Shown here: one piece after another, positions 28,059-33,540 of the stretch
Layout of the letters: every line of letters begins with the position of its first letter
Position numbering within the stretch: position 1 is the stretch's first letter
NCBI RefSeq assembly: GCF_030034735.1
Contig: NZ_CP125370.1
Coordinates: 2,046,001-2,110,000, forward strand
Direction: 5' to 3'
DNA length: 64,000 nt
Source: Paenibacillus sp. RC334
GTDB taxonomy: Bacteria > Bacillota > Bacilli > Paenibacillales > Paenibacillaceae
The notes under the pieces: model-generated
The model's input: the letters and a program-made list of their open reading frames with translations, nothing else
Told to the model about the DNA's origin: nothing
Database searches by the model: none
Program-made: the position numbers and the translations under genes

Positions 28059-28504
28059 TGCCTAGCGTCCGTCTGCTTCGTACTGTAGCCTTCGTGGCAT
28101 TCATTTTATATACGGGACTGTTATTATACTGGATGTTTCTTGGTTTTGGACGTACATTACGACCGGGTCCTCCATATTCGTATAATATAGTTCCGTTGGA
28201 TACGATCGGGCGATATCTGAGGGCGGCGCAGTCGCTTCCTTTCCGGGTGTGGGGTGTCAATTTGCTCGGTAATATTGGTATATTTGTCCCGTTTGGCATC
28301 CTTCTGCCTATCATTTGGGTATCCTTACGCAGATTAGGTAGCTTGCTGCTGACAGTGGTGGTCGCGCTGGTCATTCTTGAAGTGTCCCAAATGCTGCTCG
28401 GCGCAGGCACGATGGACGTGGATGATGTGATCCTGAATGTACTGGGCATGCTTATCGGCCGAGTTGTTTACGAGCTTCTACGAAAGAGGTTAGGGATTGA
28501 ATGA
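28058..28504 (+). CDS. VanZ-like family membrane protein
   Basis: 148 residues with four hydrophobic helices. Family marks are NIVPLDTIGRYL, NLLGNIGIFVPFGILLPI and DVDDVILNVLGMLIG. VanZ gives low-level teicoplanin resistance in enterococci, but most chromosomal relatives have no known role. The ATG shares its A with the rpiA stop. A terminator-like hairpin follows three bases after the stop. Confidence 0.85.
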   Translation: MPSVRLLRTVAFVAFILYTGLLLYWMFLGFGRTLRPGPPYSYNIVPLDTIGRYLRAAQSLPFRVWGVNLLGNIGIFVPFGILLPIIWVSLRRLGSLLLTVVVALVILEVSQMLLGAGTMDVDDVILNVLGMLIGRVVYELLRKRLGIE

Positions 28505-28506
28505 TG

Positions 28507-28559
28507 AAAGCCCTGCTCTCACGAACGGTGCTTCTGGTACCGGTTGGAGACGGGCTTTT
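28507..28559 (+). terminator. Probable Rho-independent terminator
   Basis: AAAGCCC pairs with GGGCTTT at the ends of a 38-base loop that can fold again (AACGGT with ACCGGTT). Ends the rpiA-VanZ unit. Confidence 0.5.
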
Positions 28560-28623
28560 GTACATAATAGACTGTAATTTTCTCATAATAGGCCTTATTA
28601 ACAAAGGAATAAAACGGTTGAGC

Positions 28624-28665
28624 TTGACAAAAGTTTGCAATTAAGATATCTTTGAATAAAGATAT
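28624..28665 (+). promoter_or_regulatory. Sigma-A promoter with overlapping MarR-type operator
   Basis: TTGACA (28624-28629), 17-base spacer, TATCTT (28647-28652). A perfect inverted repeat ATATCTTT-GAAT-AAAGATAT (28646-28665) covers the -10 box, the position expected for autorepression by the MarR gene that starts 20 bases later. Confidence 0.65.
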
Positions 28666-28685
28666 GAGTAACGGAGGCTGTTAAT

Positions 28686-29143
28686 ATGTCTGTAAAACCA
28701 GATGATCAGGACTTGGCGCTTAACTTGTTTGTTGTGCTGGCTCGAGCCTATAATTCGGTCACATCCCGCACGAATCGGGATATTCATAGTCACGGATTGA
28801 ACACGACGGAATTTGGTGTGCTCGATCTGTTGTATTATCGCGGCCCGCAGCCCTTGCAGAAAATTGGTGAAAAGGTGCTGATCTCCAGCGGAAATATTAC
28901 GTACGTCGTAGATAAACTTCAGAAAAAAAGCTGCTTACCCGGCGTGCATCACAGGATGATCGGCGTGTGATTTATGCTGAACTGACTGACGAGGGACGTC
29001 ATTTCTTTGAGCAAATATTTCCACAGCATCATCGTGTCATTATGGAGACAGTGGACGGATTATCTGTGGAAGAGAAAGAACAGGTCATTCATCTGCTAAA
29101 AAAGCTGGGGCTAACGGCTGAGGGACAGAAAAGTAACGACTAA
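28686..29143 (+). pseudogene. MarR family regulator, frameshifted at an A7 run
   Basis: ATG 28686 has GGAGG eight bases upstream. The first frame gives the dimer helices and helix-turn-helix (LNTTEFGVLDLLYYRGPQPLQKIGEKVLISSGN...DKLQKK) and then stops early. The wing and C-terminal helices (LLTRRASQDDRRVIYAELTDEGRHFF to QKSND) lie in another frame. Adding one A to the run at 28923-28929 restores KLQKKKLLTRR and a 153-residue MarR. The operator over its promoter and a terminator behind it are intact, so the lesion is recent or an error. Confidence 0.8.
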
Positions 29144-29180
29144 TAAGCTGCGAATATCCGCGCTAAATATGCTTTTAGAT

Positions 29181-29215
29181 AAAATACCGGTTTCCCGGTA
29201 TTTTATTTTTTTTGT
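29181..29215 (+). terminator. Rho-independent terminator
   Basis: AAAATACCGG-TTTC-CCGGTATTTT, perfect ten-base stem, then ATTTTTTTT. Behind the MarR gene. Confidence 0.9.
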
Positions 29216-29346
29216 CGCAATTTTGGGCAACGGGGTTAATGTAGAAGCGGAAATCAGGTATAATTGACGAATAGTCACGTTCGGATGCATTCCCCCCGTT
29301 ACCGTCTATGGATATAAATATGGCTTTGTCGGGGAAGGAGCTGTAT

Positions 29347-30411
29347 ATGAGTATACAGCAATATACCGCAGGTGAATCGCTATTGCTGCAAGCAGGGAAT
29401 TTGGCGGAATTAGTCACAAATAAGCAATACGAATTACAGCCGGATCTTTTGCAGCGTTTTGGGGATAACGGTAAAGAAAAAACAAAGCAAGATTCAATAT
29501 ATAGTTTGAACTATTTAGCAGAAAGCGTAATTGTGAATAGCCCTATTCTATTTACTCAATATGTTTCCTGGTTACAAAAGCTCCTGCAAGGTTTTGGTAT
29601 AACACAAGAGGATTTGACAACCAATTTCAGATTGATACAGGAGACGTTGAAAGAGCATTTTCATCACCCGGATAAAAGCATGGTGCTGGAGAATCTGGAT
29701 TTAGGGATACAGCAAATTGGGAAGAGAGAGGAATATACATCTTTTATTACGAATGATAATCCTTTAGCGGCTGATGTGGGTCAATATTTAGAGTACTTGC
29801 TCGCAGGCAGCCGCAGACAGGCTATGGACTGTATCGTCCGTTTGATGGATGAAGGCACGTCCATTCGGCATATTTATAAATATATATTTCAAATTTCACA
29901 ATATGAAATAGGACGTCTGTGGCATGAAGGTAAAATCACGATAGGGCAAGAGCATTTCTGCACAGCGGCTACTCAATTTATTATCTCTACTTTGTATCCC
30001 AGATGGCTCGTAAGCGGACATCCGGGACGCAGTCTCGTGGCGGCTTGTGTGGGTAGCGAGCAGCATGAAATTGGCTTGCGTATGCTGGCTGATTTATTCG
30101 AGATGGAGGGTTGGGATACGTACTATTTGGGAGCTAATGTGCCTAACCGGAGCTTGCTTCAGGAAATTGTGAATTACAAGGCGGACGTGGTGGCTATCTC
30201 GGCTACCATGGCTTACCATGTCCATTTGGTAAAGGATCTGATTACTTTAATACGTCAAAATAGCGCTACAAGCCATGTGAGAATTATGGTCGGTGGTTTG
30301 CCCTTTAATCTTGATCCACGCTTGTGGCAGGAAGTAGGGGCGGACGGTTGTGCGCCTGGTGCAGAGGAAGCGCTGGAGGTTGCAGAACACCTGCTGTCGT
30401 CCAGGGTGTGA
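29347..30411 (+). CDS. Cobalamin-binding protein, predicted AdoCbl photoreceptor
   Basis: 354 residues. Residues 1-115 are a helical domain I cannot name (YLAESVIVNSPILFTQYVSWL). A methionine-synthase-type cap spans about 135-220, followed by a B12-binding Rossmann domain, about 225-350. The cap carries W192-H193-x8-E202-H203. This is the W-x9-EH signature of CarH/LitR light sensors, whose Trp and Glu cap the adenosyl group and whose His after Trp binds cobalt after photolysis. The lower axial ligand is His240 in E-x-H-x2-G; here Glu replaces the usual Asp, as in CarH. There is no MerR DNA-binding domain, so output must be by protein contact. GGAAGGAG lies six bases before ATG 29347. The next gene, 63 bases on, is a hybrid kinase without a sensor domain. 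Confidence 0.88.
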   Translation: MSIQQYTAGESLLLQAGNLAELVTNKQYELQPDLLQRFGDNGKEKTKQDSIYSLNYLAESVIVNSPILFTQYVSWLQKLLQGFGITQEDLTTNFRLIQETLKEHFHHPDKSMVLENLDLGIQQIGKREEYTSFITNDNPLAADVGQYLEYLLAGSRRQAMDCIVRLMDEGTSIRHIYKYIFQISQYEIGRLWHEGKITIGQEHFCTAATQFIISTLYPRWLVSGHPGRSLVAACVGSEQHEIGLRMLADLFEMEGWDTYYLGANVPNRSLLQEIVNYKADVVAISATMAYHVHLVKDLITLIRQNSATSHVRIMVGGLPFNLDPRLWQEVGADGCAPGAEEALEVAEHLLSSRV

Positions 30412-30474
30412 AGCTGTATTAAATAAGATGTTGTATCGAAACCAGGAGTCATTCGGTAAAGGGGGGCCTTTTAT

Positions 30475-32187
30475 ATGAAGGAACCGGCAGCAGAAATGGC
30501 TGTCCTGCGGAAAACGATCGAACAATTAACAGATGAGATTGTGAAAAGCAAGGCTGAAGAAGAAAACATGCTGAATGAATTTTCGGCGATGAATAATGAG
30601 CTTGTCAATTTGCAGCGTCAGCTTGCCAAAAGCAATGCGGCTTTAAAGCGGACAAAGGAAGAAGCGGTACGGGCGAATGACTTGAAAAGCACCTTTCTCG
30701 CTGTGGTCAGTCATGAATTCAGGACTCCGATGAACGGAATACTCGGGATGATCGAAATGCTGGGTTCATCCAAACTCTCCCCGGATCAACGGCAGGCGAT
30801 CAGTGTCATACGTGAATCGGCCTCTCTGCTGCTGAACATGATTAATAACCTGCTGGATATATCCAAGGTGGAGGCGGGGCAGATGGAGCTGGAGATCGGA
30901 AACGTCAGGGTCCAGGCGATTATGAGCCATGTTGCCCAGTTATTGGAGCCACAAATCTATCAGAAGGGGAACCGTCTGAGTATAGAGACCGATTCCGGGG
31001 TAGCAGATCATTTGGAAGGAGATTCGGCACGGATCATGCAGATTCTGCTCAATCTGCTGAACAATGCCAATAAATTTACGAGTGACGGATTGCTAGTTGT
31101 TCGGACGATGTTGGTAGAAGAAACAGAGGGTTCCCAGCGTGTTCGGTTTGAGGTGCAGGATTCGGGCATCGGAATTTCACCGGAGGATCAGGTCAAGTTA
31201 TTTCAGCCCTATGTGCAGGCAGGGGAAGGCAGTGCCTCACAATATGGAGGAACCGGACTGGGACTATGGATATGCAGTTCATTCGTTGAACTGATGAAGG
31301 GACAAATTGGAGTCGTCAGTGAGGAAGGTCAAGGCTCCTCGTTTTGGTTTGAGATTCCTCTCGTCAAGGGGACGGAGCAGGTAGACGAAGTAAAGGAGCG
31401 TGAAACTGTCGAGCAGACAGAGCTTGGTGAGTGTCTGCGTGAGCATAGTCATTCCCACGCTATTCTGGTAGCTGAGGATAATCGGGTCAATCGTCAGGTG
31501 GTAGAGTTACAGCTTCGTCATTTGGGATTCCAGCATATTGATTTTGCGGAAGATGGAGAAGCGGCCGTAAGAGCGACTTTCCAACGATCTTATGCTTGTA
31601 TTTTGATGGATCATCATATGCCCATCATGAATGGTATTGATGCTGCGAAGGCTATTCGCCAGCGTGAAGCGGTGGAAAAGCTGCCACCAGTACCGATCAT
31701 TTCTTTGACAGGTAATGTGTCAGAGGAGGACAGAGTGAAGGGCCTGGAGGTAGGAGTGAACGATTATCTATCGAAGCCGGTTATGATCGAACGGCTGTCT
31801 GAAAAGCTTATCCAATGGCTTCCCAAGGCCGATGCCGAGCCTATCCTTGATGAAGAAGTTATTCATGAAATTATGATGCTGGACGAGGATGGCAGCATGG
31901 GGCTGCTGGCTTCACTCGTAGAGATGTACACCAGTGATACACCTGCAAAAATAAGCACATTAATTGAACTGGCTGCCGCGAACGAGCCAGCAAAAGTAGT
32001 GGAGGTTGCTCACGAGCTGAAATCAGGTAGCGTGAGTCTGGGAATTGGGCGTTTGTCCACGTTATTTTCCGATATTGAGCAGCTTGCACGGGAGAACCGA
32101 CTTGAAGCTGCGCAAGAGATGCTGGCTGCACTTCAGTCTGCTTATCAGGCAACGTGTAGGGAATTGGAACGGTATATCCGTCAGTAA
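30475..32187 (+). CDS. Hybrid histidine kinase with receiver and Hpt domains
   Basis: 570 residues, no membrane helix, so cytosolic. Residues 1-65 are coiled coil. HisKA has His80 in VSHEFRTPMNG. The HATPase has N-box NLLNNANK, G1 DSGIG and G2 GGTGLGLW. A receiver domain follows with Asp379 (LMDHHMPIMNG) and Lys in YLSKP. A C-terminal Hpt has His513 in AHELKSG. All three phosphorelay residues are intact. There is no sensor domain, so its input probably comes from the cobalamin protein 63 bases upstream, with which it should be co-transcribed. The final response regulator is not nearby. GGGGGG precedes ATG. Confidence 0.92.
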   Translation: MKEPAAEMAVLRKTIEQLTDEIVKSKAEEENMLNEFSAMNNELVNLQRQLAKSNAALKRTKEEAVRANDLKSTFLAVVSHEFRTPMNGILGMIEMLGSSKLSPDQRQAISVIRESASLLLNMINNLLDISKVEAGQMELEIGNVRVQAIMSHVAQLLEPQIYQKGNRLSIETDSGVADHLEGDSARIMQILLNLLNNANKFTSDGLLVVRTMLVEETEGSQRVRFEVQDSGIGISPEDQVKLFQPYVQAGEGSASQYGGTGLGLWICSSFVELMKGQIGVVSEEGQGSSFWFEIPLVKGTEQVDEVKERETVEQTELGECLREHSHSHAILVAEDNRVNRQVVELQLRHLGFQHIDFAEDGEAAVRATFQRSYACILMDHHMPIMNGIDAAKAIRQREAVEKLPPVPIISLTGNVSEEDRVKGLEVGVNDYLSKPVMIERLSEKLIQWLPKADAEPILDEEVIHEIMMLDEDGSMGLLASLVEMYTSDTPAKISTLIELAAANEPAKVVEVAHELKSGSVSLGIGRLSTLFSDIEQLARENRLEAAQEMLAALQSAYQATCRELERYIRQ

Positions 32188-32209
32188 TCGTTGGAATTAT
32201 CCCTGTTAG

Positions 32210-32249
32210 ACTTGCACACAGATGGAAGAGCTGTGTGCAAGTTTTTTTC
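32210..32249 (+). terminator. Rho-independent terminator
   Basis: Perfect 12-bp stem ACTTGCACACAG with its complement (32210-32221, 32231-32242) and seven more T. Closes the cobalamin-protein and kinase unit. Confidence 0.9.
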
Positions 32250-32286
32250 TGGAGACAGGGCAGAGAAGGAGACATAGATAACAGAT

Positions 32287-33540
32287 ATGAAAGAACAGTT
32301 GCGTTCGATTCACCCACTGGCCTGGACGATTATTGCGGGTACTATATTTGGTCGGATGGCGACATCCATGAGTATCCCGTTTTTGTCCATTTATTTGACC
32401 ACCCGGTTGGGGGTATCCCCTTTCCATACAGGGATGATCGTATCAGTCAGTTCATTAGTTGGCATTTTTGCCAGCTTTTATGGCGGCTATATTTCCGATC
32501 GGATCGGACGGCGTAAAGTGATGCTGGTGTCCATCGCCAGTTGGGCGCTTGTATTCGTGGCTTTTGCGCTGGCTGAAGCGGCTTGGGCCTTTTTTGTCAT
32601 CAATGCTCTGAATGGTCTGTGCAGATCCTTGTTCGAGCCAACCTCGCGGGCGCTGTTATCAGATGTAACCCCCAAGGAAAAAAGACTGCTCATCTACAAT
32701 ATGAGATATGCGGCGATTAATGTAGGTGTAGTGGCAGGGCCGTTGCTTGGTTTGATGTTAGGATCGGCATCCTCGGGTACACCGTTTATGGTGGCGGCTG
32801 GTGTGTATGCGCTGTACGGGGTGTTGCTGTTGATCCAATTTGCTCGGTATGCATCGGATCTGAGTACAGGGACAACGGCGGGAGAGGCTCCACTACGGAT
32901 GGGTGAGGCGTTCCGTACAGCCAGCCGTGATCCGGTGTTTATGCCGATTTTGCTGGGGACGGTATTTTGCGTCATGGGTTATGCTCATTCCAATTCTACG
33001 ATGCCTCAATTCTTGTCCTTATCCTTCGAGGAAGGAACCCGATGGTTTACATATATGCTTACAGCCAACGCGGTGTGTGTATTGGCTTTTCAATATCCGC
33101 TTGTACGGCTGGCAAGCCGTTTTTCCCCGGTGAATTCCTTGATTGCAGGAAATATATGTATTGCAGTCAGCCTGTTACTGTGCGGTATGTTAAATTCGGG
33201 CTGGTTGTTTATACTGGATATGGTGCTGTTTACAGTGGGCGAAGTGCTGTTGTTCACGATGCTGGACGTATTGATTGACCAAATTGCAGATGCTCAATAT
33301 AAAGGGACCTATTTCGGTACGATTGGCTTTAATAATCTGGGTAGCGTGCTTGCTCCTTTGTTTGGTGGCTGGCTGCTGGATACCTATGGTCAAACAGCGC
33401 CGCTTGCCATTTTTGTTCCGGTTGCGCTGTCGGTCGTGATTGGCATTCCATTCCTGCTGGTCGCACGCCGCCGTCTGGCGCAGCGTACAGCCCGGATCGC
33501 AGCTCAAGGAGGAGAGTCCGTGCAGCAACTGTCATCATAA
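32287..33540 (+). CDS. MFS transporter
   Basis: 417 residues with 12 predicted helices; motif A is GGYISDRIGRRK and an N-terminal AGTIFGRMATSMSIPFLSIY is typical of the MdtH/YttB-like drug-proton antiporter group. The C-terminus is a short basic tail. AAGGAG is about 15 bases before the ATG, farther than normal; no better start was found because an in-frame TAG lies at 32275. It is followed at 20 bases by the nucleotidyltransferase gene. Confidence 0.85.
   Translation: MKEQLRSIHPLAWTIIAGTIFGRMATSMSIPFLSIYLTTRLGVSPFHTGMIVSVSSLVGIFASFYGGYISDRIGRRKVMLVSIASWALVFVAFALAEAAWAFFVINALNGLCRSLFEPTSRALLSDVTPKEKRLLIYNMRYAAINVGVVAGPLLGLMLGSASSGTPFMVAAGVYALYGVLLLIQFARYASDLSTGTTAGEAPLRMGEAFRTASRDPVFMPILLGTVFCVMGYAHSNSTMPQFLSLSFEEGTRWFTYMLTANAVCVLAFQYPLVRLASRFSPVNSLIAGNICIAVSLLLCGMLNSGWLFILDMVLFTVGEVLLFTMLDVLIDQIADAQYKGTYFGTIGFNNLGSVLAPLFGGWLLDTYGQTAPLAIFVPVALSVVIGIPFLLVARRRLAQRTARIAAQGGESVQQLSS

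Follow-up and report, generated by a model that had tools for sequence, protein, structure and literature searches.

The pairing of photocobilin and kinase genes described here is real and is conserved to an unusual degree. In the window (the whole stretch of 64,000 nucleotides analysed, from Paenibacillus sp. RC334), the gene for a predicted photocobilin is followed after a gap of 63 bases, both genes being on the + strand, by the gene for a hybrid histidine kinase. We consider it likely that the photocobilin, a globin-first form, has this kinase as its dedicated effector and that a light signal would pass through the N-terminal coil of the kinase; ligand binding, the light response, the contact between the proteins, the direction of the kinase change and the final target are what we infer.

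Domains and ligand residues of the two proteins

The features of the locus were as follows.

29177..29208, + strand: hairpin and T run 5' of the photocobilin gene, where the marR unit probably ends
29347..30411, + strand: putative photocobilin gene (354 aa), bilin-type globin then AdoCbl module (ORF, Pfam, structure match)
29347..29754, + strand: phycobiliprotein-like globin (photoglobin), residues 1-136
29491..29493, + strand: D49, equivalent of SasPcob Asp270, a biliverdin contact (alignment, numbering +5)
29569..29571, + strand: W75, equivalent of SasPcob Trp296 (alignment with SasPcob)
29782..29994, + strand: B12-binding_2 cap helices, residues 146-216 (Pfam)
29920..29955, + strand: W192-H193 to E202-H203, adenosyl pocket signature (sequence, alignment)
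30031..30378, + strand: B12-binding Rossmann domain, residues 229-344, with H240 as lower ligand (Pfam, alignment)
30475..32187, + strand: cytosolic hybrid histidine kinase gene (570 aa; ORF, Pfam)
30475..30690, + strand: N-terminal coil, kinase residues 1-72, through which the photocobilin signal is proposed to enter; its core motif, residues 40-52, is NNELVNLQRQLAK
30712..30714, + strand: H80, HisKA phospho-acceptor, 32 residues past R48 of the coil
31609..31611, + strand: D379 of the receiver domain (sequence, Pfam)
32011..32013, + strand: H513 of the Hpt domain (sequence, Pfam)
32208..32248, + strand: 14-bp hairpin and T run 3' of the kinase gene, likely terminator (-20.3 kcal/mol, z -4.5)

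The two B12 domains were above the Pfam cut-offs with E values of 7.7e-26 and 2.1e-11, far beyond chance. The best structural match for residues 1-136 was the biliverdin domain of photocobilins and, by sequence and fold, the closest solved relatives of the 354 aa protein were the photocobilins SasPcob and AbPcob. The AdoCbl signature W-x9-EH and E/D-x-H, published as that of light-responsive B12 domains, is present in the B12 module, and the same chain carries the bilin-type globin with both the Asp and the Trp that contact biliverdin. Judged on these features the protein is a globin-first photocobilin, which would bind its ligands and respond to light. A first reading of the sequence alone had called it a stand-alone B12 photoreceptor. 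The AdoCbl-type module of that description was found, but the protein is not a CarH module with nothing else and, as a separate bilin-type globin occupies residues 1-136, the description is incomplete. The ligand and phosphorylation residues that this reading had listed, and the gap that it had given between the genes, are all present in the sequence.

Like SasPcob and AbDPcob, as described in PMC10979010, the window protein combines a CarH-type AdoCbl module with a five-helix bilin globin, and it has equivalents of SasPcob Asp270/Trp296 and Trp61/Glu71/His72/His108, the last four of which anchored the SasPcob numbering at an offset of 5. Its domain order is the reverse of theirs, with the globin first; the same paper states that predicted photocobilins of both orders exist. 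It also differs from both in being paired with a separate kinase. In an alignment of 101 sequences D49, W75, W192, E202, H203 and H240 were invariant (101/101), while position 193 was Gln in 92, His in 8 and Leu in one. The window protein, with His, is therefore an exception in its family. The statement that it has the same Trp, His, Glu and His residues as CarH holds for the window, where H193 corresponds to the bis-His residue of TtCarH, but the family usually has Gln after the Trp, as does SasPcob. Position 46, where the Cys of the photoglobin CxQD motif named in PMC10151467 falls, was Cys in 32 and Thr in 54 of the 101 sequences. As the window protein has Thr, a bilin, if bound, would be held non-covalently, as in SasPcob. 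In AbPcob, according to its published description, the Asp270 equivalent is His and biliverdin is bound weakly.

The AdoCbl-pocket Trp, the Glu-His pair and the lower His are shared with CarH/LitR. Unlike those proteins the window protein has an extra globin, of the same kind as the photoglobin family, and a kinase partner; the earlier claim that it has no DNA-binding domain was borne out, as no DNA-binding Pfam family, MerR-type included, matched it at cut-off. The CarH model scored 44.1 bits against a cut-off of 400.

For the kinase, the Pfam domains HisKA (71-135), HATPase_c (182-296), Response_reg (330-445) and Hpt (481-560) were above cut-off behind the coil, in the order originally read, so that all the domains of a hybrid kinase and their phospho residues were found. 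The kinase had also been called sensorless. No sensor family in Pfam matched the 570 aa protein at cut-off, but the lack of a sensor appears to be a derived state in which an N-terminal sensor domain has been lost. Partner kinases elsewhere have an N-terminal domain, and it is retained in those of the Paenibacillus relative L032 (7075-9168) and of L158. The stretch ahead of the phospho-His is 188-229 residues long in 9/67 host-family kinases and about 80 in the window kinase, which suggests that most of the family, the window included, lost this domain.

Given the hairpins with T runs on either side (29177-29208 and 32208-32248), the two genes are probably their own two-gene unit. The surrounding genes encode, by Pfam, a chemotaxis receptor, acetyltransferase, ribose-5-phosphate isomerase, VanZ-like and MarR proteins, and further an MFS transporter, nucleotidyltransferase, acetyltransferase, lipase and TetR protein. 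A promoter scan of 28900-32400 gave nine sites, every one on the - strand, and an Rfam search over 28400-33000 gave no match at E up to 0.1. The marR-like gene upstream (28686-28970) is shortened by a frameshift within a run of A; the relative L160 has an intact 152 aa frame at this position (1554-2012). The window frameshift is either a real mutation or a sequencing error.

Linkage of the photocobilin to its partner across genomes

The photocobilin and the N-terminal coil, the latter with the 72 residues of the window kinase as query, were sought in a host-family sample of 295 Paenibacillaceae genomes. A near-full-length photocobilin was found in 68/295 (counted from match rows; the G286 copy has stops) and the coil gave one match each in 77 of the 295. 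All 68 genomes with a near-full-length photocobilin had the coil just downstream. Adding seven genomes with photocobilin fragments brought the figure to 73/75, and in all 73 pairs the two matches shared contig and strand and were 26-396 nt apart. The coil was present in 4/220 genomes lacking any photocobilin piece. No such piece was found within the stretches retrieved for these four (L155-L158), where the kinase frame was unbroken in L155, L157 and L158 and split in L156. Among the 68 retrieved loci with a photocobilin frame, 67 had the kinase frame next; the exception, L086 (also L159; G286), has a broken photocobilin and still has the coil. The photocobilin is decayed next to an open kinase frame in L160 (G200) and gone with the kinase kept in L155 (G229).

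The second sample was 298 genomes from the class of G320, the genome of locus L061 (Anaerolineae bacterium). Seven had a near-full-length photocobilin and three the B12 part only. A query of the partner's N-terminal domain plus coil matched eight genomes. In seven of them the gene immediately upstream, in the same orientation, was a photocobilin; the remaining match was weak and had no photocobilin. Thus 7/7 photocobilins had an adjoining coil partner, five of these pairs being new since G320 and G312 were already in the first locus set. Conservation of the gene pair, which had been proposed from the sequence as a check across Paenibacillus, was seen in both samples.

The coil as a proposed receiver for the photocobilin

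At the 80 initial loci the coil was scored by a strict and by a looser pattern. The next gene held the coil at 72 of them by the strict pattern and at 78 by the looser one, and a kinase core was likewise present at 72. The two loci left were L070, where the next gene is unrelated, and L081, where a variant coil was recognised by eye. Most partners outside the Paenibacillaceae are kinases of ~400 residues with ~110 residues ahead of the coil. This N-terminal domain (L032 and most partner kinases of L039-L083) is uncharacterised and is tied to photocobilins; no Pfam family was above cut-off in the 10 scanned, and it is PAS-like by eye only. The partner in the Bacteroidota loci L050 (7014-7508), L055 (7034-7555), L057 and L073 is the N-terminal domain and coil without a kinase. 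As the kinase and the N-terminal domain are each missing in some partners, the coil is the element common to nearly all.

A search with the 59-residue coil region of the L042 partner matched 232 proteins; among the matches listed (120 of 232) most were kinases and some were GGDEF or PAS proteins. Ten were inspected and had the N-terminal domain and coil or, in P0220, the coil. A search for GGDEF partners from P0217 matched almost only ordinary GGDEF domains. In P0169 the N-terminal domain and coil are followed by a short Cys-rich tail in place of a kinase.

Fusions were sought among long proteins only, scored on the photocobilin part, and 22 matches were obtained. In 16 of these a photocobilin (only its B12 part in P0257 and P0260) is followed by the coil in one chain, and in 15 a kinase or GGDEF part lies behind it: kinase, kinase and receiver, PAS-kinase or GGDEF domain, with nothing in P0250. 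The N-terminal domain was visible in P0249 and P0250 and not in the other 14. The window pair looks like such a fused form cut at the linker. P0261 and P0262 were weak other matches, and P0245, P0251, P0256 and P0259 had no coil or output domain; these last four have tandem photoglobin-like stretches and one B12 module. The earlier proposal that the output is a kinase controlled by protein contact, and not DNA binding, finds support in these one-chain fusions and in the conservation of the pair.

In the window kinase the phospho-His lies 32 residues after the Arg of the coil (R48). The same spacing was found in 36/36 named Paenibacillaceae loci and 66/67 host-family kinases (one not scored), while in the 44 other loci, 37 of them scored, it was 25 in 28, 32 in two and another value in seven (55 three times, 62, 64, 156 and 725); these sequences are closely related and their kinship limits the weight of the counts. 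Ten scored fusions gave 25 in six, 32 in three and 43 in one, and the coil-search matches listed (120 of 232) gave 25 in 91 and 179 in two, with 27 not scored. In GGDEF proteins the distance from the coil Arg was 24 in 15/15. The main kinase spacings of 25 and 32 differ by exactly seven, as expected if the coiled coil runs in register into HisKA. In photosensor kinases such as bacteriophytochromes the photosensor is coupled via a coil to HisKA, as proposed for the window pair, but sensor and kinase there are normally one chain whereas here they are separate proteins with different pigments.

These observations suggest the following mechanism. The Co-C bond of AdoCbl in the photocobilin would be cleaved by green light, or by red light should a bilin be present, and this cleavage would rearrange the protein in the way reported for SasPcob and AbDPcob. 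The kinase, with no N-terminal sensor domain, would take the signal through its N-terminal coil by contact with the photocobilin. The dark and light forms would set the coil differently and alter phosphorylation at H80, from which phosphate would pass to D379, to H513 and on to a response regulator elsewhere. According to PMC10979010, SasPcob is a dimer in the dark and a monomer in the light, AbDPcob remains a dimer but expands in the light with its cyclase turnover up more than tenfold, and light-adapted photocobilins alter a cyclase both in cis and, as isolated proteins, in trans. The same paper gives a reversed sign for the in-trans effect of SasPcob without biliverdin, so the direction of the kinase change is not predictable. 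Together with the gene linkage, the one-chain fusions and the coil-to-His spacing, this published behaviour makes light control of the kinase via the coil the most likely mechanism. Against it, kinases persist without an intact photocobilin in the relatives L155, L157, L158 and L160, and the extra N-terminal domain of most partners outside the Paenibacillaceae might be the real docking part there.

More tentatively, and with the odds slightly against it, the ~30-residue coil (NNELxxxQRELxKK) may be a portable photocobilin receiver. Bacteria of several phyla would use it ahead of kinases, kinase-receivers, PAS-kinases or GGDEF domains, either in the same chain as the photocobilin or in trans, and a single type of light sensor could thereby serve many outputs. 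The Paenibacillaceae would mostly have stripped the partner to coil and kinase, and some Bacteroidota to N-terminal domain and coil.

Schneider et al. 2022 reportedly associate photoglobin with domains for B12 binding and signal transduction, and kinase neighbours may already be described there; among the titles and abstracts listed in the literature searches, none describes a photocobilin-kinase pair. The combination of photoglobin and B12 domain is itself already known. The word 'kinase' is absent from the main texts of PMC10979010 and PMC11796333, and the former says of stand-alone photocobilins that their function 'is less clear'. Here a stand-alone photocobilin has a dedicated and almost inseparable partner, for which the output is a histidine kinase and the likely contact a defined coil. 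The pair would supply a biological role for a class of photoreceptor that was discovered only recently. If the proposal is right, B12 and perhaps bilin provide a light input to two-component signalling in the Paenibacillaceae and other groups, and a light receptor acts on a coil in trans.

Pigment supply and other explanations

The genome of the strain contains a PduO-type ATP:cob(I)alamin adenosyltransferase; no CobA-type adenosyltransferase, PF01126 heme oxygenase or PHY domain was found in it. The lack of a PF01126 match makes bilin use in this strain doubtful; green-light sensing by AdoCbl needs no bilin. Eleven host-family genomes have a phytochrome (PHY) without PF01126 (G084, G126, G134, G157, G172, G191, G207, G222, G236, G283 and G291), hence the absence of PF01126 is no proof of lacking biliverdin, for which another source is possible in these genomes.

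A rather improbable alternative is that the protein reports AdoCbl supply or redox state, the AdoCbl-bound and apo forms holding the kinase differently and photolysis being incidental. According to PMC10979010, AbDPcob was less active with AdoCbl alone than as the apo form, which favours this, as do the missing PF01126 match and the lack of any riboswitch-like RNA over 28400-33000 that would link the unit to B12 in another way. The signature of light-responsive B12 domains points the other way, and supply sensing would not need the two biliverdin-contact residues, both of which are invariant.

That invariance (D49 and W75, 101/101) would suit a protein that is mainly a sensor of bilin or another tetrapyrrole through its globin, with the B12 part structural. 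We regard this as very unlikely, the AdoCbl residues all being equally invariant. Heme oxygenase and photocobilin do co-occur in the host family: with kinship ignored, 49 genomes have both, 19 the photocobilin only, 24 the heme oxygenase only and 203 neither. Split by phytochrome, again with kinship ignored, the same cells become 42/0/13/11 with it and 7/19/11/192 without it, and some heme oxygenase genes are no more than 3 kb away from a phytochrome gene (e.g. G025, G205). Much of the family association thus follows phytochrome, and heme oxygenase was rejected as proof of bilin use. The strain itself has no PF01126 match and, in the cross-phylum set, PF01126 was found in 6/46 searched genomes, many of the set being incomplete metagenome bins. 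In four of the six (L046, L051, L054 and L058) the photocobilin is preceded at ~0.2-0.3 kb by the PF01126 heme oxygenase gene, which hints at a supply of bilin in those bacteria. These four are among the 10 of 80 initial loci that have H193. In the host family H193 occurs in 5/68 photocobilins, all five genomes being without PF01126 and without phytochrome. The idea that H193 stands in for a bilin was rejected as a rule, given the adjoining heme oxygenase gene in 4/10 H193 loci.

The reading as a corrinoid protein of methyl metabolism with a kinase beside it by coincidence, prompted by NCBIfam MtbC/MtgC matches with E down to 7.2e-15 and by the name 'methanogenic corrinoid protein MtbC1' given to relatives in some sources, is already contradicted by bit scores of 45-55 where the models require 215-370 (55 against 350 and 54 against 370 for the corrinoid methyltransferase models), by the globin domain and by the linkage to the kinase coil in 68/68 genomes.

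In a few host-family genomes the B12 module and the globin were seen as separate frames, at L153:3402-4067 (G033) and L154:3327-3983 (G160) and also in G224 and G251. Near the B12 gene of L153 and L154 lie, by eye, a small PAS-like gene and a CheB/CheR-like gene.
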